Shown piece by piece: positions 7,520 to 26,845 of a stretch of 42,198 nucleotides of DNA (the stretch's first letter is position 1; each line of letters opens with the position of its first letter). The position numbers and the translations under genes were made by a program. The DNA is from a virus. The notes beneath the pieces are model-generated. The model worked only from the letters and a program-made list of their open reading frames with translations. It ran no database searches and had not been told where the DNA came from. The DNA is taken from the IMG/VR virus record IMGVR_UViG_3300027782_000151, positions 1 through 42,198 of that record; one strand, 5' to 3'.

Positions 7520-9205
7520 TTAAAGTTGAGTCCATGTGCTTCCTCCATTTGTAGATCTAAATAATCCAGTTGTTGATCCAAGTAATCTATATGGTCCATC
7601 TGTACCACCTACAGCACAATCTGTAAATGGTCTTGTTCCCATGCCTGTAAGACTACTATTGACAACAGATCCTAAAGTATCACCACCAACAGGAACTGTT
7701 TTTGCTGCATCAATTGCTTGATTAGGATAGTCACCTGCATAAGTCATTACAGTGCCATATCCAGAAGGAGATGTAGATGCATATAATTGTCCCACTCTGT
7801 ACCAGTTTCGTAAGTAAGAGTTTCCAGTTTCAATACTAGTATAAGATGCTCCATAATTAGTAGATTTAAACATAAAGCCTCTTGTTAAATATGCTGCACC
7901 ATAGTTTTGCACAGCACCTGTTACAACAACTGTTGATCCATCACTGCTACAACTAATATCTCTTACATATTGAGTTCCAGGATATACTGTTTGCCATGTA
8001 GCACCATAGTCAGATGATTTCACAATTGTTCCAGCACTTGATAATGAAGTATAACTATATGAAAGATATATATATTGACCAGTGTCACTTATTGCCACTC
8101 CTTGAATACTGTAACCATCTTCATAATAAGGTGAAGTACTGTATGATATTCCTGGAATAACTGACCAAGATCCAGCAGCTCCATAGTTGTTTGAAATCTT
8201 TGTAGTATATTGAGAATTACCTAATTCATAACAAACTATTATATACTGTCCATTTCCAGAAACTCCCACTCCTTCAAAATATTCTGTAGCATTACCTCGT
8301 ATTCTACTAGTTATATCAACAAAACTTGCACCATAGTTACTAGATAACATTAATGGACCATTTAATGAAGCACCAATCATATACTGACCAGTGTCAGACA
8401 TTGCTATTCTTTGCCAATAATATAATGTATTATTAGAAGATTTTTGCCATGTTGCACCATAATCAATAGATCTATATAAACTTCCTTCTTTGAAACCTAT
8501 ATTTCGTCCATCAGAACCAGTTGCTACCATTTGATATTGACCAGATCCTCTATTCATGGATACTGCTGTTATAGGAATTCCTCCATTCTGATCTTGGAAG
8601 GTAAAATTTATAGGAGTTGCTTGTCCATCAATAATAGTTAGTTCTATACTATTAGGAGCATATATAAGTTCAGGATTAAGATAAACTATAGTAGGTTGTG
8701 GTCCACTTGTATAGTAAAAAGTACCATCAGAAACTACACTTCCATTTACAGATAGATTTACACTAAAATATCCTGATGGACTAGTGCTAGTACCATCAAC
8801 TTCTATATATAAATAAGGAAAACCACTAATACCAAAACTAGAATAGTATTGAGTATTTTGAGTTGAAGATGCAGGAAGACTCCAAATTCCTACTGGTATG
8901 TAACTACTAGCTAGATCATAATAAGATATTCCTGTAAAAGATATACCATAATTAGGAGTTAATATAGCATCTCCAAATATTGCAACGTCACTTTTTACAA
9001 CAAGTTGATTTTGAGCTTTGTTTACAAAAGGAGGATAGTTAGATACACTATCAGGTACAAGTATATAATCTTGAAAGTCTTGTTTAGTAATTTGTTCAGT
9101 GCTTACAGGAATAGGTTGAGTTGAAAAAAAGAATAATTGATTACAAGCATCTTGTAAATTATTAAATGATATACACTGATTTGGTAGTAATGTATTCCAA
9201 CTCAT
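7520..9205 (-). CDS. Beta-propeller (BNR/sialidase-like) tail fibre or receptor-binding protein
   Basis: This is a 561-residue protein. Residues 1-200 form an N-terminal domain with a helical start (MSWNTLLPNQCISFNNLQDACNQLFF), likely for virion attachment. From about residue 230 onward there are repeated blades with the BNR/Asp-box pattern: SIDYGATWQ, SSNYGASF, SNNYGAAGSW, SSDYGATWQ, STNYGASY and a final STNGGSTWTQL. Between blades the phrase SDTGQY recurs (MSDTGQYM, ISDTGQYI). This is the signature of a six- or seven-bladed propeller like those in sialidases, Ycf48 and many phage adhesins. No sialidase catalytic set can be assigned, so glycan binding rather than cleavage is the safer inference. 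Its start abuts the collagen-like fibre gene with a one-base overlap at 9205. Confidence 0.8.
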   Translation of the reverse strand: MSWNTLLPNQCISFNNLQDACNQLFFFSTQPIPVSTEQITKQDFQDYILVPDSVSNYPPFVNKAQNQLVVKSDVAIFGDAILTPNYGISFTGISYYDLASSYIPVGIWSLPASSTQNTQYYSSFGISGFPYLYIEVDGTSTSPSGYFSVNLSVNGSVVSDGTFYYTSGPQPTIVYLNPELIYAPNSIELTIIDGQATPINFTFQDQNGGIPITAVSMNRGSGQYQMVATGSDGRNIGFKEGSLYRSIDYGATWQKSSNNTLYYWQRIAMSDTGQYMIGASLNGPLMLSSNYGASFVDITSRIRGNATEYFEGVGVSGNGQYIIVCYELGNSQYTTKISNNYGAAGSWSVIPGISYSTSPYYEDGYSIQGVAISDTGQYIYLSYSYTSLSSAGTIVKSSDYGATWQTVYPGTQYVRDISCSSDGSTVVVTGAVQNYGAAYLTRGFMFKSTNYGASYTSIETGNSYLRNWYRVGQLYASTSPSGYGTVMTYAGDYPNQAIDAAKTVPVGGDTLGSVVNSSLTGMGTRPFTDCAVGGTDGPYRLLGSTTGLFRSTNGGSTWTQL

Positions 9206-11241
9206 TATTTGTTTAATTTAGCTTCTAATTCTGCAATACGTTTTTCTAATGCTGCTATTTTCAAAGTATGAACATCCATGTAGTTTACAGATAGTTTATC
9301 TTCTCCTGTAACTGCATCTGGAAGTATTGATTGTACTTGTTGAGCTGAATATCCATATCTAACTTTATTTGTTTCATCATCAGTTCTTACAAACTTGATT
9401 ACATCTATTCCTAATAAATCTATTTGAGGATTTGTTTCAATTACATTTTTATATCTAATATCAGAAGACTCAAAGAATGCTGTAGCACTAATTGCTGTAC
9501 TAGATACCCATCCTCCTCCTGTTATTGCATAGAAAGTATAGTTATTAGCTTGATTGTATATACCTGTATTAGTATTATCAAATTGTACAATTCCTGCTGT
9601 TTTAAAGTTGTTTGCAGTATATACAATTTCAGATGTAGCAATTGTTGTACCATCATCAACAAATCCACTATTACCAAGTGTTGAAGCACTTGTAAATTTA
9701 CCTAAATAATTAGTTGTTCCAGAAAGTGCTACTGATGAGCCACTTGAGCCAGAAGAACCAGATGAACCAGATGAACCAGATGAACCTGAAGATCCACTAG
9801 AGCCACTTGTACCACTAGAACCATTTGAACTAGAACCACTTGATCCTGAAGAGCCAGATGAACCAGATGAACCACTAGTTCCACTAGTTCCACTAGTTCC
9901 ACTTGATCCTGAAGAGCCAGATGACCCAGATGACCCAGATGACCCAGACGATCCTGAAGTTCCTGCAGTTCCAGATGCACCTGTACCACCAGAGGTACCA
10001 GATGATCCACTTCCACCAGATGTTCCAGAAGAACCTGTAGCTCCACTAGAACCATTTGCACCAGATGTACCAGAAGTACCAGTACTTGTACCTGCTGTAG
10101 CAGATGTACCTGCTGAGCCTGAACTACCACTTGTTCCATGAGTTCCTGCACTTGCAGATGTACCACTGGTTCCACTGGTTCCACTTGTACCAGAGCTACC
10201 ATTAGTTCCTGATGATCCTGAACTACCAGAAGTTCCAGCTGTTGCAGATGTTCCAGATGTTGCAGATGATCCTGATGATCCACTGGTACCAGAAGTACCA
10301 TTACCACCAGCAGCTCCAAATAAGTTTACAGTCCAAACTGCATATGTTCCAGAACCTGTTGTTGTAGTAACATTAACTATCAAAGCACCTGTACCACTAT
10401 CGTAGCTAGTAACAGAGCCTTGCATTGTATTGGAACCATCATAAGTTATTAAAACAGTTTGAGCAACACTATATGCTAGTCCTGTTCCTACTGTTAGACT
10501 TTTTACTCCAGCTCCTATTAATAAAGAAGTAGTAGAAGAAGTTAAATATCTATCTCCATTTAAACCAGATGTACCAGAAGTACCAGTTGTACCATTGGTT
10601 CCTGAAGAAGCAGAAGTTCCAGATGTAGCAGAAGTTCCAGAAGATGCACTTGATCCAGAAGTACCAGCTGTTGCATCACGTCCTGATGTACCAGAGCTAC
10701 CATCTGTTCCTGTTGTACCTGCTGTACCAGATGAACCATCTGATCCAGATGTACCTGCAGTACCTGAACTTGCAGAAGTACCTGATGATCCAGAAACACC
10801 TGCTGTTCCACTTAATCCTGATGTACCAGAAACTCCACTAGAGCCATCTCTACCAGCTGTTCCTGCTGTACCAGTAATACCTGACGTAGCACTAGTACCA
10901 GATGAACCAGCAGCACCAGCAGCACCACTCGCACCAGAAGTACCAGAAGAACCATTAGTACCAGCAGCTCCTGAAGCACCAGACGTACCAGCAGTACCTG
11001 TGCGACCACTAGAACCAGAGGTTCCAGATGTACCATTAAGACCAACAACACCATTACTGAATGCATCATCTATTTTTGATAAAGCACAGTCTAAGTTGTT
11101 GCCAGTTTGTATTCCTGTATAAGGAAGGTTAGGACCATTATATATAACAAGATCTGCTGTAGTTGCACAAGGAAGTGAATTACAGTTTTGATTAGGTTGA
11201 TAGTATGCGTTGTAACAAGGATCTCCAGGATTGCAAGCCAT
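9205..11241 (-). CDS. Collagen-like tail fibre with C-terminal S74 intramolecular chaperone
   Basis: This is a 678-residue fibre. Residues 1-68 form a Cys-containing N-terminal domain resembling that of the neighbour at 11263 (the TGIQTGNNL...AL pattern). Two blocks of Gly-X-Y triplets (about 69-229 and 311-500), nearly all GTSG, GSSG or GASG, flank a small globular domain (about 230-310). A beta-rich tip follows. The C-terminal ~90 residues are a Peptidase_S74 domain: SSDIRYKNVIE carries the Ser and Lys of the self-cleaving dyad, and a trimeric coiled coil follows (LKIAALEKRIAELEAKLNK). S74 domains trimerise the fibre and then cut themselves off. The long triplet tracts would form a collagen-like triple helix. 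The coding repeat makes the locus prone to length change. Confidence 0.9.
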   Translation of the reverse strand: MACNPGDPCYNAYYQPNQNCNSLPCATTADLVIYNGPNLPYTGIQTGNNLDCALSKIDDAFSNGVVGLNGTSGTSGSSGRTGTAGTSGASGAAGTNGSSGTSGASGAAGAAGSSGTSATSGITGTAGTAGRDGSSGVSGTSGLSGTAGVSGSSGTSASSGTAGTSGSDGSSGTAGTTGTDGSSGTSGRDATAGTSGSSASSGTSATSGTSASSGTNGTTGTSGTSGLNGDRYLTSSTTSLLIGAGVKSLTVGTGLAYSVAQTVLITYDGSNTMQGSVTSYDSGTGALIVNVTTTTGSGTYAVWTVNLFGAAGGNGTSGTSGSSGSSATSGTSATAGTSGSSGSSGTNGSSGTSGTSGTSGTSASAGTHGTSGSSGSAGTSATAGTSTGTSGTSGANGSSGATGSSGTSGGSGSSGTSGGTGASGTAGTSGSSGSSGSSGSSGSSGSSGTSGTSGTSGSSGSSGSSGSSGSSSNGSSGTSGSSGSSGSSGSSGSSGSSGSSGSSVALSGTTNYLGKFTSASTLGNSGFVDDGTTIATSEIVYTANNFKTAGIVQFDNTNTGIYNQANNYTFYAITGGGWVSSTAISATAFFESSDIRYKNVIETNPQIDLLGIDVIKFVRTDDETNKVRYGYSAQQVQSILPDAVTGEDKLSVNYMDVHTLKIAALEKRIAELEAKLNK
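9735..11037 (-). repeat. Two tracts of Gly-X-Y coding repeats
   Basis: Two stretches (about 10555-11037 and 9735-10311) consist of 9-base units coding mainly Gly-Thr-Ser or Gly-Ser-Ser, separated by a 240-base unique segment. In the tract nearest 9.75-9.97 kb the units are nearly identical at the DNA level (repeated GATGAACCA or GATGACCCA on the + strand), which suggests recent expansion. Assembly collapse or expansion is possible here. Confidence 0.85.
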
Positions 11242-16534: not shown

Positions 16535-18088
16535 TTAGAATTGAGGAATTTCTTCAATCAATACTGTACGAGATAAATCTTCGATAAATACATCACAACG
16601 ATCTTTCATCCAGATCTCATATCCAGGGAATTTGTTTGCAGAACTCATACCTTGAGACTTAGCAAAGCCTAAGTGGTGACGAGTACCATCAATATAACCC
16701 CAAGTCATAGAAGGTGCACCCTTCATACGTACTTCACGAATGTTGTTCACCATAGAACCATCACTCATTGGAGATACATCAAATACCATGAATACAGGAG
16801 TAGATTTCTTATTTTGACCAAATTCCAAGTTTGTTTGAGGTAAGTCTAACTCTTTCAAGTGAATTAACTCAACACGACCAGTCTCACGAGTAACCATTGC
16901 ATCGAATGCAAAGTTGTATGTGATATGTTGGCCTTCTCCTTGCATGTATCTGTTACCAGAATCAGCCATGAAAGTTAAACCAGAATTTAAAGCATCTGTT
17001 TTTAAAGCTTGTTGGAATACGTCAAAGCCAGCTTCATTAGTGTACATTTTAACACGTCTGTCTTTAACATCCACACGTCTGTAGAATAAGTCACCAAATA
17101 CAGAACGAATTAAGTTCGCAGTGAACTCACCTCTGTTGTACTGTACTAAGTTACCATTGTTACGCATTCTGTGATATACACCAGCAGAAGTACGCTTTAA
17201 TTCTTGCTTAGAACCATTAGTCTTCACAGTACCAGGACGAGCCCAGATCATACGCTTAACTTTTAATTCTAACATAGACTTACGCATCCAGAACTCAATA
17301 AATGGTTCCCACTTAACATCATTACGAGTTAAAGGTAATTGGTTACGTCTTTGAGGAGCGTATACTAAGATATCTAAAGGTTTGCCAGAAGCATCTCTCA
17401 TCATCTTGTCATCAGCCCACTCAGTGATTTTGTGCTCATAACCATATGCAGAACCTAAAGATTCAAACATTGTGATTTGCTCACCTAAACGAGGAAGACC
17501 TAATAAGTCTTGATCGAATTCACCAATTGCAGCATCAACTAACTCTAATTCCACACCTACTTGCAAGAAGATAGAGCTTACGAAATCAACAGTTGGGTTG
17601 TCACTTACTAAAGTGAATGTGTACAAGTATCCAACGTTCCAAGGAACTGGATCTTTTACTACGTAGAAACGTGGACCATATTGACGTGTACCTACAGAGA
17701 TGATTGCGTTCTTAGAAAATTCATTAGTGTCAATGATTAATTGAAACTCTTGTCCATCAATACCAGGTTTGTTTAACTCCTGAGTAGAAACTGGAACGTC
17801 AATGATTTTTGGGAACTTGTAAGGTACTTGCACTTGCCATTTCCAAGCATCACTATTATTGTCGATATAGTAAGGTGTGCTCTTGTTAATCATATCCAAG
17901 AAGTCATTACTATAAAGAGAACTCTGAGTATATAAGCTGATGATCTTTTTATCATAATCAGCAGGCTCAGTTGAGTGAAAGCTCTCTAAATGGTTTGAGT
18001 CAGTCAATTTACCTACAGCACGCTTGTCCATAGAAGCGACTCTAGCATAGGTAAAACCAGTTAAACCTGGGATTGTTTGAATTGCCAT
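16535..18088 (-). CDS. Major capsid protein (probable HK97-fold, crAss-like)
   Basis: This 517-residue protein starts MAIQTIPGLTGFTYARVASM and has the size of the crAss-like major capsid protein. It lies in the expected place, 35 bases after a scaffold-like gene and downstream of portal and terminase. The composition is typical of a capsid protein: an early flexible N-arm, long beta segments (WQVQVPYKFPKIIDVPVS), few Cys and an even hydrophobic pattern. Codons are unusually regular (many ACGT-type third positions compared with the fibre genes), which fits high expression. The HK97 fold is known for the family and is inferred here. Its stop is followed by the hairpin-rich gap at 16376-16530. 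Confidence 0.85.
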   Translation of the reverse strand: MAIQTIPGLTGFTYARVASMDKRAVGKLTDSNHLESFHSTEPADYDKKIISLYTQSSLYSNDFLDMINKSTPYYIDNNSDAWKWQVQVPYKFPKIIDVPVSTQELNKPGIDGQEFQLIIDTNEFSKNAIISVGTRQYGPRFYVVKDPVPWNVGYLYTFTLVSDNPTVDFVSSIFLQVGVELELVDAAIGEFDQDLLGLPRLGEQITMFESLGSAYGYEHKITEWADDKMMRDASGKPLDILVYAPQRRNQLPLTRNDVKWEPFIEFWMRKSMLELKVKRMIWARPGTVKTNGSKQELKRTSAGVYHRMRNNGNLVQYNRGEFTANLIRSVFGDLFYRRVDVKDRRVKMYTNEAGFDVFQQALKTDALNSGLTFMADSGNRYMQGEGQHITYNFAFDAMVTRETGRVELIHLKELDLPQTNLEFGQNKKSTPVFMVFDVSPMSDGSMVNNIREVRMKGAPSMTWGYIDGTRHHLGFAKSQGMSSANKFPGYEIWMKDRCDVFIEDLSRTVLIEEIPQF

Positions 18089-18123: not shown

Positions 18124-19389
18124 TTATTGAAACCAAGATGTGGATTTAACTGCTGGCTTAGATTTCACTGAACTTTTTTGAGCTTGTCTGGCAACTTCAC
18201 CAAATAATTCATTAGACTTTTTGGTGATACCTGTCTTTTGAATAGTAGATAATGTAGGATCTTTCTCCATTATCTTCATGATCAACGCAAGTTTTACTTT
18301 GGTTGCATGATTCTCAGGACGTTTCAGCTCTAGAATAGTACGATCAAAATCTGTTAATGTTTCACCAGAATTTGTTTTGTACTTATCTGTTACTAGGAAA
18401 TCTTGTAGTTCACCAGCTAATTTAGGGTTAATTGGTATGCCATCAAATTCTTTAGCTTTAATCTTCTCTTGTAAAACATTGTTTACATTTTGATAGTATT
18501 GTTGCTTGATGGCTTGTTGCTGTTGTAATTGGGCTTCTTTTTGTTGCTCCAGTTGTTGAAGCTTTTGACCCTCTTTCTTTATTAGGACTTTATGATGTTT
18601 AGCAGCAACAGTTTCTAAATCACCATAGTTTTTTAATCTTTCTACTTCTGTTGTAACGTCTTCAGGTTCAAAACCTTGATCAGTTAAAGCTTGTCTGATG
18701 ACAGCTACTTGGTTACTTTCTTGTGTAAGATCCATTTCAGCAAAAGATTGAAGTTGGCCAAATGCACCAAAATATTCTTTAGGATCTATACCTTTTACAA
18801 ATATGGCATCAAATGCTTTTTGATAATCTTCTCCAAACTGTCCAATGAAGTTATCTACAATTTCAATAGCTCCTTTTTTCTTTTCTGCTTGGAAGCGTTC
18901 TAAGAATGCTTCAGGAGTATCTATTGGGGTATCTTCTTCATCTTCATCTTTAGAGAAAACACCTAGTTTGAAAAGGTCATTTGATAAAGCAGTAAATTGG
19001 CTCGTAGGAGCGTCTTCTTCTTCATCACTATCTTCTTGATTATCAGCAGTTTGTGCAGTAGCTTTCTTAGCTGGTGCAGCTGCTGGTTCGTCATCTTCTT
19101 CCTCGCCTTCTTCATCATCTTCACCATACAAGAAACTTTGAATATCCTTTTTAGAATCTTCATCTTTCTTTTCAGGTTCTGGATCTGAAGCAGCTGGTTG
19201 TTTAGAAGTAGTTTTCTTTGTTGGAGCAGGAGCAGGTTCATCTTTAATGTCCTGAATATCATCAGGGCTAGATGTTGCACTTTCAGGGGACAATAAGTCA
19301 TTTAATAACTCTTGACTACCCATTCCCATGTCCATAGTATCTTGAATACTAAAGTTGCCTATCTGAGGCATATCTAGATTTTCAGCCAT
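18124..19389 (-). CDS. Capsid scaffold-like protein
   Basis: This 421-residue protein starts at 19389 in the ACTACATATG context and has its own promoter-like element. It opens with a short segment (MAENLDMPQIGNFSIQDTMD). A long disordered acidic stretch follows (about residues 50-130; runs of Asp and Glu such as GEDDEEGEEEDDEP), then a helical region and a Gln-rich coiled coil (about 270-310; QQLEQQKEAQLQQQQ). The C terminus is basic (SSVKSKPAVKSTSWFQ). Position directly upstream of the capsid gene, high charge and helical content are typical of phage scaffold proteins. The basic tail would be the capsid-binding end. A role as internal cargo protein is the main alternative. Confidence 0.75.
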   Translation of the reverse strand: MAENLDMPQIGNFSIQDTMDMGMGSQELLNDLLSPESATSSPDDIQDIKDEPAPAPTKKTTSKQPAASDPEPEKKDEDSKKDIQSFLYGEDDEEGEEEDDEPAAAPAKKATAQTADNQEDSDEEEDAPTSQFTALSNDLFKLGVFSKDEDEEDTPIDTPEAFLERFQAEKKKGAIEIVDNFIGQFGEDYQKAFDAIFVKGIDPKEYFGAFGQLQSFAEMDLTQESNQVAVIRQALTDQGFEPEDVTTEVERLKNYGDLETVAAKHHKVLIKKEGQKLQQLEQQKEAQLQQQQAIKQQYYQNVNNVLQEKIKAKEFDGIPINPKLAGELQDFLVTDKYKTNSGETLTDFDRTILELKRPENHATKVKLALIMKIMEKDPTLSTIQKTGITKKSNELFGEVARQAQKSSVKSKPAVKSTSWFQ

Positions 19390-19418: not shown

Positions 19419-19449
19419 TAAAAGTATATTAAGTTAAATTAATAGCAAA
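19419..19449 (-). promoter_or_regulatory. Bacteroidota-type promoter for scaffold and capsid genes
   Basis: Read leftward, TTTG (19449-19446) is followed by 19 bases and TACTTTTA (19426-19419), close to TAnnTTTG. It lies 29 bases upstream of ATG 19389, the same distance as the element before the gene at 6756. The gap 19390-19507 contains nothing else coding. A copy of the motif ATAATATAGCATTAA lies at 19483-19497. Confidence 0.65.
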
Positions 19450-19507
19450 GAGGGAAGGCTCTATATAGACCATTATTCAATATAATATAGCATTAATATT
19501 TTTTACT

Positions 19508-20038
19508 CTAATCTAATTTGTTAACAAAATTGTCATTTATTAGTCTAAAGCTTTTAATTGGAGCTAGATCTGTAAGTGTAACTTGTTGAACCTCAACTCC
19601 CCACTTACGTGCCTCAACCCTAACTTTCTTAGTCAAAGTATTATCTAATTCAGAATCTGTACATTCTTCCAAGGTCATAGACATGATAATGTTTTTGATT
19701 ATGCTTTGAGACATATCTGATAAAGCATCTTGGGCATCATACACTTCTAGTAAGAATGTTTTAACATCTGCTATCTTATACTTGATAAGTCCCTTAACTA
19801 CAATGTTTTGTTTGTCAAGAGTATATAAAGATTGGGCATCTAAACTTAACGTAGTTACTACTACATGTTGATCTATTACTTCATCAAAAAGAGGGATTTT
19901 CATATGCAACCCAGGTTTGAGAACAGCTTTAAATTTCCCAAACCTGAGCAACACAGCTTCTTCATAATCCCTGATGATGATAAGTGGGGTTATTTGTAAC
20001 CACCAGTTGGTTATTATCTCAATCAGTTTATCAAACAT
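19508..20038 (-). CDS. SPFH / band-7 domain protein (stomatin-prohibitin-flotillin-HflK/C fold)
   Basis: In this 176-residue protein, residues 1-25 form a short hydrophobic N-terminal region (IITNWWLQITPLIII) that could sit in or on the inner membrane. The rest reads as a complete SPFH domain: EEAVLLRFGKFKAVLKPGLH, then KIPLFDEVIDQHVVVTTLSL, the QSLYTLDKQNIVVKGLIKYKI strand pair, the helical AQDALSDMSQSIIKNIIMS and the terminal RKWGVEVQQVTLTDL. The long coiled-coil C terminus of host flotillins and HflK/C is missing, so it is a minimal form. SPFH proteins assemble into membrane-bound rings and regulate proteases such as FtsH. It lies two bases from the portal gene and just before the scaffold promoter. 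Its role in a phage is unknown to me. Confidence 0.85.
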   Translation of the reverse strand: MFDKLIEIITNWWLQITPLIIIRDYEEAVLLRFGKFKAVLKPGLHMKIPLFDEVIDQHVVVTTLSLDAQSLYTLDKQNIVVKGLIKYKIADVKTFLLEVYDAQDALSDMSQSIIKNIIMSMTLEECTDSELDNTLTKKVRVEARKWGVEVQQVTLTDLAPIKSFRLINDNFVNKLD

Positions 20039-20040
20039 AA

Positions 20041-22626
20041 TTATTTGGTTTTCTTAGCAGATCTATTCTTGGCATTCATTTGAGCAACTTTTAAATCATT
20101 TGCTTGGTTCTCTCTTTCTACTTGTAGTTTCTCTCTCTCTAGTTGTAACTTCTCAGAAGCAAGTCTACTCTTATTTTGAATATCCATCATTTTAGATTGA
20201 TAGTCTTTAGCAGCTTTAGATTGTTCATTCTGTAATTTACTAATTTCTAGTGCGTCAGGTACTCCATTTGAGTCTTTATCTGTTACAGACATACCCTTGG
20301 ACTCAGCCATAATTGTAGCAACCTCAACTTTATTGATTCTATCAAGATCTTTTTGGTAATCATCATGAGCTATTTTTTGATCATATTGTTGCTGAGCTTG
20401 TTGTAACTGAGCTTGAGCTTGTTCGTTTTGTTGATCTAATTGCTGTTGCTTTTGTTGTAATTGTTGATTTTGTAATTCATCTTGTCTATTCTTAAGCGTC
20501 TTGAATACCTTCTTCATCTGACGTACAGAGTTAGTACTATAAAGCTCAATGATATCATATAAGCTACCACCATTTTGAATAACAGCTTGAGATAATCCTC
20601 TAATCTCATTGAACATTTCTTTATCTTCAGGTCTGTTAGTTAAATATACTTTTAAATCTCTAAATCTAAGATCTGTACCATTTACAGTTACAAATGCTGA
20701 TTCACCTTCACTCGTGATATAAGATATAGTAGATTGTGGTTTTTTACTTTCAACAAATAAAGCTGCATCAATAATAGCTTGATACAACTGACCCATAATA
20801 TATTCATGTGCTACAAACAAAGGTTCTGTTTGAGAATAAGATTGTTGTATAGCAGTATTAGTACCTGTAGCTGATTCACTAGCTGATACAGATCCAAGTC
20901 TTTGCTTAGATAAACCAACTAATTCCCAACATTCATTCTTTATCTGTTGTGCTAAAGTATATCTTGCTTGGATCTCCTGCGTACGTGTAAGGTCTAAGCT
21001 TGTATATTGGTTAAAGCTAGAAGGACTCTTTAAGTTCTCTGGGCTATCATCCACAAATACTACTCCTCTATTACGTGCTTCCATTTCCCAGATATCTAAT
21101 GCATCTTGTGCATCACCATCTTTAGGAATAGGAATATGTCTAATAGACATTAACTGTACCTTACCTACTTCCTTCTCTAATAACTTATAAAGTTGATTCA
21201 TACAAACATTATAAATTACTTGGAAAGGTTTCATCATATCTACCAAGCTTTTAGCTTCTGTATTCTTAACTTCAAATGTTTGACCAATGATTGGACAATA
21301 AGGTAATAACTTATAAGGTTTAATGTGGTAGATATCTGGACCAATCTTAATACCTTGATACCATTGGTTAATCCATCCCCATTCTAATGATTCTTCTGTA
21401 GGTATAGTTTTTGACTTATAGTTTTCATCTACTAACAAAGATTGTTCATTACCCATTTCATCTAAGTAAATAACTTTACCAATCTTTTTCTTAGAAATCC
21501 AGTAAGCTCTTACTACAACATACTTATAACCAAAACTACTAACATTAGAAGTTAGTCCTAAGAAATCCTTAAGTCCATCATTGTTCTCTTTCATCTCAGA
21601 CTCAATGATCATTCTAGTTTGTAGAACTAATGGATCATATGTATCATATTGAATAGAGTCATTACCTGGAATAGCATTAGGGTTACCTAAATTAGATTCT
21701 CTAACATTGATAAGACCATAGTCTTGTAGTGAACTACGTAAGTGATCAATTTCATCTTTAGTTAAGTCTGGAATAGATTCAATAATCTCAGATAATTCTA
21801 ATACCTGTACAGTACCAGCAGCATATGCTCCTTGTGCTCTACCTGTAACATCTGAAATCCACTTTCTATCAGGAGTGGTTAAGAACCAAGTGTTTTTTGG
21901 GTTAGCTACTTCTACATTAAATCCAAGCTTTGAGTTATCTTCATAGATATGGAAGAACTCTCTAGCAGATATTAAAAGATCTCTAAATGAATCTTCACCT
22001 TTCTCTTTAAGATTAAATTCTAACTTTTGAGCTGTAAGAATATGGTTAGCCCATTTCTCAGCAATAGATGTATAACTATCTAATTCATCTTTAACATCCT
22101 CTAACGTCATTTGATTTAGCTCTTCTTCTTCAATCTCCTGACCTTCCATAGCAGCCTTTTCTTGTATCTTTTGTTTTGCTTGATTAGTAATATAATCATT
22201 TAACATTTGAGTTTTAAACTCTAGTTCTTCTGATTTACTATCATCATCAAATGCTTTGACACGAAATGCATCAGGTCTTTTACTGATCTCTCCCACTAAT
22301 TCATTAACAGGAGTAGTCATTATAGAATAATGTTTCACATACGCAGGAAGCTCAAGATCTGCTGTAAGTACATCTGTAAAGCTTCTAACTTCTGGTTCTA
22401 CATAAAAATCTTCTCTTCTTAAAATACCTTTAATAAGATCATAGTTCTTTACAAATGTATCTCTGCTTCTTACATATTCAGCATATGCTTTGTTAGCAAA
22501 GTAGTCCATTGTGTTCTTGATCCAGCTTTCATCCATCTTCTCTTTCTCAGTCTTAAACTGATCAGGGAAGATATTCAGATAAGCATATCTTATTGTTGCG
22601 TCTTTCGTATACCTTATAATTGCCAT
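20041..22626 (-). CDS. Portal protein
   Basis: This 861-residue protein is of the size known for crAss-like portals. It directly follows the terminase gene with a one-base overlap (22626). The N-terminal third contains helices and a WISKKKIGKVIY strand region. The central core (TPVNELVGEISKRPDAFRVK; PFQVIYNVCMNQLYKLLEKEVG; LSKQRLGSVSASESATGTNTA) follows the pattern of podoviral portal wing and stem segments. The last ~150 residues are a Gln-rich coiled coil (QLQQKQQQLDQQNEQAQAQ) and a charged helix (REKLQVERENQANDLK) that would form the barrel reaching into the head. It forms the dodecameric DNA channel at the special vertex. Identification is strong from position, length and layout. Confidence 0.85.
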   Translation of the reverse strand: MAIIRYTKDATIRYAYLNIFPDQFKTEKEKMDESWIKNTMDYFANKAYAEYVRSRDTFVKNYDLIKGILRREDFYVEPEVRSFTDVLTADLELPAYVKHYSIMTTPVNELVGEISKRPDAFRVKAFDDDSKSEELEFKTQMLNDYITNQAKQKIQEKAAMEGQEIEEEELNQMTLEDVKDELDSYTSIAEKWANHILTAQKLEFNLKEKGEDSFRDLLISAREFFHIYEDNSKLGFNVEVANPKNTWFLTTPDRKWISDVTGRAQGAYAAGTVQVLELSEIIESIPDLTKDEIDHLRSSLQDYGLINVRESNLGNPNAIPGNDSIQYDTYDPLVLQTRMIIESEMKENNDGLKDFLGLTSNVSSFGYKYVVVRAYWISKKKIGKVIYLDEMGNEQSLLVDENYKSKTIPTEESLEWGWINQWYQGIKIGPDIYHIKPYKLLPYCPIIGQTFEVKNTEAKSLVDMMKPFQVIYNVCMNQLYKLLEKEVGKVQLMSIRHIPIPKDGDAQDALDIWEMEARNRGVVFVDDSPENLKSPSSFNQYTSLDLTRTQEIQARYTLAQQIKNECWELVGLSKQRLGSVSASESATGTNTAIQQSYSQTEPLFVAHEYIMGQLYQAIIDAALFVESKKPQSTISYITSEGESAFVTVNGTDLRFRDLKVYLTNRPEDKEMFNEIRGLSQAVIQNGGSLYDIIELYSTNSVRQMKKVFKTLKNRQDELQNQQLQQKQQQLDQQNEQAQAQLQQAQQQYDQKIAHDDYQKDLDRINKVEVATIMAESKGMSVTDKDSNGVPDALEISKLQNEQSKAAKDYQSKMMDIQNKSRLASEKLQLEREKLQVERENQANDLKVAQMNAKNRSAKKTK

Positions 22627-24665
22627 TATGAAAACAATTTATTGCGTTTATATTTATTTTTTGATTGTCCAAACATACTATTTCTAGCATCAGTGAACAA
22701 TATATTTCCTCTCTTCTTTTTAAACATAGAAGTAACTCTTTCGTCTGAAGTTCCTCCTATCTTACCCATAATTGGGTCCATCTTTAAAGCTTGTGCTATG
22801 GCTAACTCTGCAGCTACAATTCTATCAAAGTTACCTTGATCATTGTATTGAATAATCTCTTCAAGCAATACAGGATCAAATATCTTACTTACTCCTAGCA
22901 CTTCTCTAATCACTTCACCAGCTTCATTCTTCTCTACAAAGATAGGACTTTCCATGTATTTTTTAAGACATGTGTGAAGGTAGTCAATTATCTTTTCACT
23001 TGAACGATGAATTCCATAATCTCTTTTAACTGTAGTGTTAGGAACAATTTCCTTAAGCCACTCAGGTTGTTTCTCTAAATAATGAGCATCACCTTTACTC
23101 TTCATATATTCAATAAAGGATATATCATCATTCTCACAAAGAGCTCTAGCGTTATAATACTTTATAAGAAATCTAGCTTGTTCTTCCCAAGTTTCTTTCT
23201 TATCAGGTCTTGCACAATATGAAGCTACAAACATATCTTGATACTTCTCACCACTAATCTCATGCATTCTCTTATATATGTACACAGATCCAAGTGAAGT
23301 TGAATATGCAGACTTACCTTGTCTATATGGATCGACTCCTGCTACATACAAACCATAAGGTGGATTATCTATAGGGAATTCATATATAACTACAGGTGCT
23401 TCTTTTAAATCTGAGTTCTTTAGAGGGAAGTTAGAGATAGGCATTTTGTCTGTAAACTCATGAGCTATCTTCTCTCCATCATTAAACAATATAACAGGTG
23501 TACCTGTTCTTTCTTGATTTAATAATCTAATCTTCTGTCTCTTAGCACTCTCAATATCAAATATATTTGTGTCCTCATTCAAAAAGATATCATCCACTTC
23601 TTGAGGGTAGTACATCTTTTCTTTTAAATAAGCTATACGATCACCAGCTTTCTTAAGTCTTTCTAAGTTATCATTTGTAACTTTTGTAGCTTTCTCCTCA
23701 TTACTTACAAGCATCTTAACATTATGTAAGTCTGATCCACTAGGCTCATCTAAGAAAACTCCAAGACTAGATTCCTCCTTTGCCTCCATTCTATATTTAT
23801 GGGAGATGAACAATCCATGAATACGTTTGTCATCTTTAGCATTATTATATGTAAGGAAATTAAAGTTATCTACGTCAAACATTAAGCTCTTGGCATCCAT
23901 AAATTTCTTCATGTCACCACCAGTCCCAGTAAGTATGGGGCTACATCCCCAACCATAGGGTGTAGTGAAGCCAGGAATAGCTGCCTGTAAACCTCTAAGG
24001 AAATTACCTTTACCAATCTCATCTATAATTAATTTACGTGGTTTTGTACCTGCAATTGCCTCTTCATTATTACCTTCATCAAGGTTACGTATTAGAATGG
24101 AAGAGAATGGGATACGTTCACCAGACTTGGTCTTTATACCTAGAGTCACTTGGTTCTTCCAGTTGTCCTCAATTCTCTGCCACCTCCAATACTCAGGAAT
24201 GAAATTCAATCCCTTGTCTATCTTATCAGTAATCAGTTTAATATCTGGGGCATTTAAGCCTGCTATGATATTCTGACTGTTTTCATCAAAGGTTGCACCC
24301 CATGCTATATAGGATGCTTCTAAAACTGACTTGGCAAAACGTCTAATACCTAGAATGACTAAGCCCCTCTTTTCTTGTTGAGCTCTGTCAATTTCGTTCG
24401 TCACAAGCCATTCGTTATCTCTTAATAGGGGATTGGCATATTTCTGTGCAATCCTCCCATAATCATCTATTACGTCTACTTCTGTATGCCATATGTTAAG
24501 GTGCCAATATAAAAAGGGGTTAATGTAAGTACCCCCCATCATTGCTCCATTCAAGCATAGTTCTCTGTGAAAGTCAAAAAATGGCTTACACTCAGCAGAG
24601 TCCTTGTCAGGAATACGCTTCTGATTTATGAACCAGTCTTTATAGTCTATACTTTGTAGTTCCAT
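22626..24665 (-). CDS. terL: Terminase large subunit (DNA packaging ATPase/nuclease)
   Basis: This is a 679-residue protein. The ATPase half shows a Walker A variant, GIRRFAKS at 106-113, and a Walker B with catalytic Glu, LIIDE at 212-216. The C-terminal RNase H-like nuclease starts near YVAGVDPYRQG (D445) with further acidic positions at ALCENDDISF and near KIFDPVLLEE. It packages phage DNA through the portal, cutting concatemers. The gene overlaps the portal gene by one base and shares its start with the stop of the upstream small gene (24665). The Walker A with Arg-Arg-Phe-Ala instead of Gly-rich residues is usual for phage terminases. Confidence 0.93.
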   Translation of the reverse strand: MELQSIDYKDWFINQKRIPDKDSAECKPFFDFHRELCLNGAMMGGTYINPFLYWHLNIWHTEVDVIDDYGRIAQKYANPLLRDNEWLVTNEIDRAQQEKRGLVILGIRRFAKSVLEASYIAWGATFDENSQNIIAGLNAPDIKLITDKIDKGLNFIPEYWRWQRIEDNWKNQVTLGIKTKSGERIPFSSILIRNLDEGNNEEAIAGTKPRKLIIDEIGKGNFLRGLQAAIPGFTTPYGWGCSPILTGTGGDMKKFMDAKSLMFDVDNFNFLTYNNAKDDKRIHGLFISHKYRMEAKEESSLGVFLDEPSGSDLHNVKMLVSNEEKATKVTNDNLERLKKAGDRIAYLKEKMYYPQEVDDIFLNEDTNIFDIESAKRQKIRLLNQERTGTPVILFNDGEKIAHEFTDKMPISNFPLKNSDLKEAPVVIYEFPIDNPPYGLYVAGVDPYRQGKSAYSTSLGSVYIYKRMHEISGEKYQDMFVASYCARPDKKETWEEQARFLIKYYNARALCENDDISFIEYMKSKGDAHYLEKQPEWLKEIVPNTTVKRDYGIHRSSEKIIDYLHTCLKKYMESPIFVEKNEAGEVIREVLGVSKIFDPVLLEEIIQYNDQGNFDRIVAAELAIAQALKMDPIMGKIGGTSDERVTSMFKKKRGNILFTDARNSMFGQSKNKYKRNKLFS

Positions 24666-26533: not shown

Positions 26534-26564
26534 CAAAGGTATGTATATCTTACCTATCTACAAA
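26534..26564 (-). promoter_or_regulatory. Consensus Bacteroidota promoter of the leftward packaging/virion operon
   Basis: Read leftward, TTTG (26564-26561) is followed by 19 bases and TACCTTTG (26541-26534), an exact match to TTTG-N19-TAnnTTTG. A copy of ATAATATAGCATTAA, on the same strand, lies 24 bases upstream (26602-26588). Confidence 0.78.
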
Positions 26565-26599
26565 TAACTAATTTAGTTATTGTAAAAGTTAATGCTATA

Positions 26600-26845
26600 T
26601 TATGCATCAAATCTCCTAAACAGGATAACAAAGCTAAATAACAGCAAGCCTATCCTAAGCTCCTGTTCTAATCCATCGTCTTGTAGATGGTAGTTTCTAT
26701 TAGATACACCTAGTTCAAAACTGTTGTAATCCTTAGGTAGGAATTCTATACCCACTTCATACTCATCAAAGAAGGCAAATCCCCATATCACTACACCTAT
26801 CATCATAATCAATGTAGCTGCAAGCACCATGTTTAATATCATCAT
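26600..26845 (-). CDS. Small membrane protein with two transmembrane segments
   Basis: This 81-residue protein starts at 26845 (MMILNMVLAATLIMMIGVVIWGFAFF), and a second Met follows at once. A longer reading from TTG 26896 would begin inside the -7 element of its promoter, so it is rejected. Residues 3-26 form a clear transmembrane helix. A soluble loop follows (EYEVGIEFLPKDYNSFELGV), then a second hydrophobic segment near the end (RIGLLLFSFVILF) before RRFDA. It is the first gene on the leftward side of the divergent region and is separated from the packaging genes by their own promoter. A lysis, superinfection or early membrane role is possible but nothing in the sequence decides. Confidence 0.6.
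   Translation of the reverse strand: MMILNMVLAATLIMMIGVVIWGFAFFDEYEVGIEFLPKDYNSFELGVSNRNYHLQDDGLEQELRIGLLLFSFVILFRRFDA

Follow-up and report, generated by a model that had tools for sequence, protein, structure and literature searches.

The gene at 19508..20038 (minus strand) of a 42,198-nucleotide (nt) stretch of viral DNA (IMG/VR record IMGVR_UViG_3300027782_000151, here called the window) encodes what is almost certainly a genuine SPFH protein of 176 amino acids (aa), reduced to the two SPFH subdomains and devoid of the long C-terminal coiled coil that characterizes the canonical ring-formers stomatin, HflK/C, prohibitin, and flotillin. The gene sits in a slot between the portal gene and a putative scaffold gene of a crAss-like phage, and its distribution among relatives makes it very probably an optional, moron-like accessory that the capsid does not need. 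Our whole explanation, in which an accessory minimal SPFH protein acts at the host membrane from a crAss-like cargo slot, is evenly poised between right and wrong. SPFH proteins are widespread across cellular life, and both their ring assembly and their function in bacteria are poorly understood; a swappable yet strongly conserved form that lacks the coiled coil, carried by a common environmental group of crAss-like phages, would offer a clean test of what SPFH1 and SPFH2 do alone.

Fold and anatomy of the SPFH protein

The open reading frame starts with ATG and ends with TAG. Its product matches the Pfam Band_7 family (PF01145) with an E value of 2.1e-26 and a score of 93.5 bits, which exceeds the curated gathering score of 23.6 bits; the match covers profile positions 2 to 150 of 176 and protein residues 21 to 163. 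Sequence matches in the PDB included stomatin and QmcA (E values of ~5e-10) and HflK (3e-8). An AlphaFold model based on 70 aligned relatives (pLDDT of 75.7), used instead of a poor earlier model from 28 sequences (pLDDT of 63), contains both SPFH1 and SPFH2 and runs from an N-terminal helix through the SPFH1 strands and the SPFH2 alpha/beta unit to a disordered tail. When this model was compared with known structures using Foldseek and VIA-align, stomatin, prohibitin, flotillin, QmcA, and HflK/C were recovered at Z scores of 12 to 16, with stomatin at 14 to 16 (VIA-align, residues 1 to 162); the SPFH2 of stomatin alone aligned with the model at a Z score of 15.7 and an rmsd of 2.4 over 103 residues. 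Model secondary structure, the Pfam match, and the alignment to stomatin together place the SPFH1 and SPFH2 subdomains at residues 19 to 162 (19553..19984, minus strand). A preliminary description of this gene, made from the DNA letters, had proposed an apparently complete SPFH domain, and the profile and structure comparisons bear this out with high-scoring matches to SPFH families. The top NCBIfam match is HflK (E value of 1.4e-20), but membership in that family was rejected, the score of 73.9 bits against the TIGR01933 equivalog comparing with a cut-off of 159.4 bits.

The long C-terminal coiled coil is indeed lacking, as had been proposed. Only 18 residues follow profile position 158, compared with 88 to 141 residues after the SPFH domain in host proteins of the slipin/QmcA type, and ~14 residues remain beyond SPFH2. 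Where the coiled coil would be, these form a short tail (residues 163 to 176; 19511..19552, minus strand) that is modeled as disordered, with a pLDDT below 50 for residues 165 to 176. Stomatin/slipin and QmcA (PDB 9z7u, 3bk6, and 8z5g) share the SPFH1-SPFH2 fold with the phage protein at ~16 to 22% identity and Z scores of 13 to 16, but they also differ from it at the other end, where a transmembrane or hairpin segment takes the place of the amphipathic helix described below. All 86 of 86 distinct full-length relatives in IMG/VR are exactly 176 aa long, and therefore the short form is no decayed remnant. Selection on the gene is strongly purifying: the median dN/dS is 0.064, next to 0.056 for the major capsid protein (MCP), 0.099 for the portal, and 0.175 for the scaffold, all of these being rough values with many pairs near saturation at synonymous sites. 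A ratio this low is also what one might see in a structural protein or in one frequently needed for other reasons. The last codons of the tail sit in DNA that resembles empty-slot sequence and, because GATTAG and neighboring bases are common to slots that are empty or hold a different cassette, the invariance of L175-D176 may be partly a DNA-level constraint.

The N-terminal hydrophobic segment of the preliminary description was only partly substantiated. A helix is predicted at residues 1 to 18 (19985..20038, minus strand; model helices at residues 2 to 10 and 12 to 16), but it is strongly amphipathic, with a hydrophobic moment of 0.43 to 0.60 across the family (mean, ~0.5), and its 19-residue Kyte-Doolittle maximum of 0.96 to 1.40 across the family stays below the usual transmembrane cut-off of 1.6; the octanol scale is more permissive and allows a transmembrane segment in most members. 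Neither an export signal nor a clear transmembrane segment was found at the N-terminus, and a lipobox is likewise missing, the N-terminus MFDKLIEIITNWWLQ containing no cysteine. This composition calculation makes it fairly likely that the protein is membrane associated, with the helix as a putative in-plane anchor.

The portal-scaffold slot

All the genes around the slot lie on the minus strand. Ahead of the SPFH gene are the gene for the terminase large subunit (TerL; 22626..24665; phrog_6681, E value of 1.8e-81), the first large gene of a TerL-portal unit, and the portal gene (20041..22626; phrog_6547, E value of 1.5e-99). Behind it follow a gene for an acidic, glutamine-rich protein (18124..19389; phrog_16294, "unknown function"), labeled as scaffold from its position before the MCP gene and its composition only, and the MCP gene itself (16535..18088; phrog_11589 major head protein, E value of 9e-33). 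The location between portal and putative scaffold had thus been given correctly. Only 2 nt separate the portal stop codon from the SPFH start codon, and from this spacing, which is short in every SPFH-bearing locus measured in the portal-based sample, the two genes are probably cotranscribed.

A Bacteroidota-type promoter-like element, TTTG-N-TAnnTTT, separates the slot from the scaffold gene (19419..19449, minus strand). It is found ~32 nt ahead of the scaffold ATG in 92 of 95 distinct upstream regions, compared with 1.6 expected from mononucleotide shuffling, a control that ignores the kinship of these related, nonindependent regions. A conserved 15-mer, TTAATGCTATATTAT (19482..19496, minus strand), is located just downstream of the slot and, with slight variants allowed, is present in 91 of the 95 regions whatever the slot contains; the same 120 to 150 nt precede the scaffold gene in all three slot states. 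The conservation of the element within an AT-rich intergenic stretch suggests a promoter for the scaffold and MCP genes. The scaffold gene would then open the next unit, and the SPFH gene would close the TerL-portal unit, so the earlier placement "inside the capsid operon" holds for the position between portal and scaffold but not for the transcription unit of the scaffold and MCP genes. The 15-mer, a possible phage regulatory element, has a second exact copy elsewhere in the window (26589-26603, plus strand). A perfect match to the Bacteroidota-type promoter (TTTG-N19-TAnnTTTG; 26534-26564, minus strand) is located close to where the leftward late gene block begins; across the window, the promoter pattern occurs 10 times against 5.7 expected, which is not clearly above chance.

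Searching with the SPFH protein recovered relatives in which the gene, where the contig reaches far enough, lies between portal and scaffold, but such a search is biased toward presence, and a portal-based search is less so. Among the best 80 portal relatives, the slot holds the SPFH gene in 42, a two-gene cassette in 13, and nothing in 24, and is cut off in 1; adding the window gives 43, 13, and 24, respectively. The MCPs of relatives with and without the SPFH gene are 92 to 98% identical, and the portals are about 80% identical. In a second portal-based sample of 80 contigs, centered nearer to the window and sharing contigs with the first, the SPFH gene was present in 69, the slot was empty in 10, and 1 contig had the cassette. 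Slot content switches at least 12 times on the portal tree, also inside well-supported groups, an indicative count given partly unresolved forks and likely recombination. No Band_7 match was found anywhere in 12 SPFH-negative records, 5 of them longer than 110 kb. The isolates Lbo-JY46, Fpv3, and cr6_1 have no SPFH gene in the slot, and all relatives found to carry one there are uncultivated contigs. The synteny anticipated in the preliminary description is conserved in at least 80 related contigs, but roughly half of the portal-selected sample lacks the gene.

Since the distant relatives Lbo-JY46, Fpv3, and L226 show only a short gap at the slot, it is more likely that the SPFH gene was gained than that it was ancestral there. 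SPFH distances correlate better with scaffold distances (rho of 0.55) than with portal distances (rho of 0.36), a pattern that joint exchange of the slot and the DNA downstream of it would produce. Patchy presence at a fixed site in close relatives is the mark of a moron or cargo gene, and this turnover, together with the promoter-like element before the scaffold and MCP genes, argues for an accessory without a required capsid or docking role. The slot, whose flanks are nearly identical while its contents vary, is also a place to seek more host-takeover genes.

Known SPFH proteins, origin, and host

Phage-encoded SPFH proteins are already known. The T4-like phages 44RR, Aeh1, and RB43 carry SPFH genes (PMC1524935), and the SPFH protein of the N4-like phage GIB1 has been described as a lipoprotein (PMC13239085). 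The phrog_200 SPFH lipoproteins are also Band_7 proteins encoded by phages, but the window protein matches them weakly (E value of 2.6e-8) and, unlike them, has no lipobox. Lbo-JY46 carries an SPFH gene elsewhere in its genome (~3.9 kb record position; L088:1429-2211), far from the portal; its ~260-aa product has a signal-peptide/lipobox-like start. In Burkholderia phage CSP3, orf75 was reported as an SPFH_prohibitin moron (PMC10269572) and is thus likewise a phage SPFH gene called a moron, but the phage is unrelated, the annotation is to the HflC family, and the genome position is different. The prohibitin-like protein of podovirus ctgrD200 (MW202733, Manatee Spring) is also short, stops shortly past SPFH2 in a tail resembling that of the window protein, and is encoded next to a terminase gene, but it is only 27.5% identical and belongs to an unrelated phage with other neighbors. 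Its annotation (L087:1420-1983) is probably too short; an upstream open frame adds an N-terminal helix and SPFH1, which would make it a further SPFH protein without a coiled coil. Many predicted viral structures are also SPFH proteins, the best match being a 173-aa "HflK" of an uncultured Caudovirales phage (BFVD A0A6J7WFI0; 26% identity). A literature search whose coverage left out most subscription papers returned no report of SPFH proteins in crAss-like phages, and an SPFH protein without a coiled coil, carried in the cargo slot of crAss-like phages, looks new.

No close bacterial donor was found in 84,980 species genomes scanned with the SPFH alignment, and genomes of the Chitinophagaceae type had only longer, distant SPFH proteins. 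In length and tree placement, the best-scoring host proteins resemble slipin or QmcA rather than HflK/C, but the branches of the SPFH tree are long and their support is weak, and we therefore name no donor. Neither a minimal SPFH protein of the Manatee type nor a bacterial slipin was found in IMG/VR, and the PADLOC library gave no anti-defense match. One match in MT835563 (H2) was set aside as a longer SPFH protein of 301 aa in DNA that looks bacterial.

The crAss-like affiliation suggested previously is supported by Pfam matches in the window to CrAss_Ring_1 (PF24228; E value of 2.1e-8) and CrAss_Ring_2 (PF25702; E value of 4e-14). The portal matches crAss portals with E values down to 1e-54, and TerL also resembles crAss-like phages; on this pairwise and profile evidence, the window phage is placed with them. 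The longest contigs among its relatives are ~110 to 118 kb. The host is likely a member of the Bacteroidota, given the type of promoter element, a Chitinophaga-integrated relative (60% MCP identity, within a 4.8-Mb chromosomal contig from Chitinophaga sp. YR573), and Flavobacterium phages among the MCP relatives; the phylum is not certain, since Lbo-JY46, also a distant relative, is a Leptolyngbya phage and infects a cyanobacterium. The YR573 relative (L208:1712-14441; portal identity of 51%) is integrated, which is unusual for crAss-like phages, and its slot is filled by ~4.3 kb of oppositely oriented DNA, in which one gene encodes an 872-aa protein whose sequence looks like that of a secreted M4-type metallopeptidase. 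The window also encodes a 678-aa tail-fiber-like protein (9205-11241, minus strand) with collagen-like and tail fiber PHROG matches.

Possible roles

We propose that the SPFH protein would be made late, together with TerL and portal, and that it would be attached to the inner membrane from the cytoplasmic side by its N-terminal helix and SPFH1, staying out of the virion. There it could contact host SPFH assemblies of the slipin/stomatin or QmcA-NfeD type through SPFH-SPFH contacts, contributing no coiled coil, and thereby alter membrane organization or membrane-linked proteolysis in late infection. Interference with, or coassembly into, host SPFH assemblies is our leading guess, and that the protein acts on a host SPFH or protease assembly at all is a tentative proposition; were it so, host SPFH assemblies would be a possible target of phage infection. 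It is conceivable, although improbable, that the coiled-coil-less protein is an evolved phage inhibitor or adaptor that enters host inner-membrane SPFH assemblies and blocks cage closure or partner binding, thus disabling a quality-control or antiviral function, with the alternative HEHFH cassette serving the same purpose in a different way.

A different possibility, rather unlikely in our estimate, is that the protein assembles by itself into a small membrane-domain organizer that changes the envelope, through superinfection exclusion, membrane protection, or lysis timing, and leaves host SPFH proteins untouched. The complete SPFH1 and SPFH2 of the model are compatible with such an organizer, as are strong purifying selection and the moron-type turnover of the slot, which is usual for exclusion and host-takeover genes. 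The coiled-coil region, however, stabilizes SPFH rings, and with this region missing a stable homo-ring is uncertain. Antagonism of host HflK/C-FtsH, sparing a phage protein from proteolysis as the preliminary description had raised, would accord with HflK as the best NCBIfam match and has a parallel in phage lambda, where the stability of CII is affected by HflKC and FtsH (cited for phage CSP3 in PMC10269572), but the score falls far under the equivalog cut-off, and the best host proteins resemble slipin and QmcA instead. In addition, the SPFH part of HflK/C is periplasmic, and because the phage protein lacks both an export signal and a clear transmembrane segment, it is less likely to join that cage than to act at the cytoplasmic face. 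Taken together, we regard HflK/C-FtsH antagonism as distinctly unlikely.

We give just as little weight to a component of the virion or procapsid, such as a portal-vertex or membrane-docking ring. The start of the gene just past the portal gene and a dN/dS about as low as that of the MCP would suit such a component, and procapsid docking had been raised in the preliminary description. The slot census speaks against it and led us to reject a capsid or docking role as unlikely: the SPFH gene is missing, or replaced by an unrelated cassette, in relatives whose MCPs are near-identical and whose portals remain closely similar, and the promoter-like element sets it apart from the scaffold and MCP genes.

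The alternative cassette encodes a ~78- to 83-aa protein and an 89-aa protein with the invariant HEHFH motif, part of a longer invariant LHEHFHLxHPDWSE (HExxH, zincin-like); the 89-aa protein had no match in Pfam, PADLOC, the PDB, or phage records. The cassette lies at L138:10589-11057, with equivalents in L139-L142, L144, L146, L157-L159, and L164-L166. Gene content offers only a lead, from a comparison of four genomes with five that is partly confounded by descent: four extra genes are common to the SPFH-positive near-complete genomes (G002, G003, G004, and G006) and missing from the SPFH-negative ones (G009, G014, G016, G017, and G018; loci L231-L284). One of them encodes a 149-aa protein containing the sequence VQHELLHV, and another encodes a 122-aa protein that has a single hydrophobic segment.
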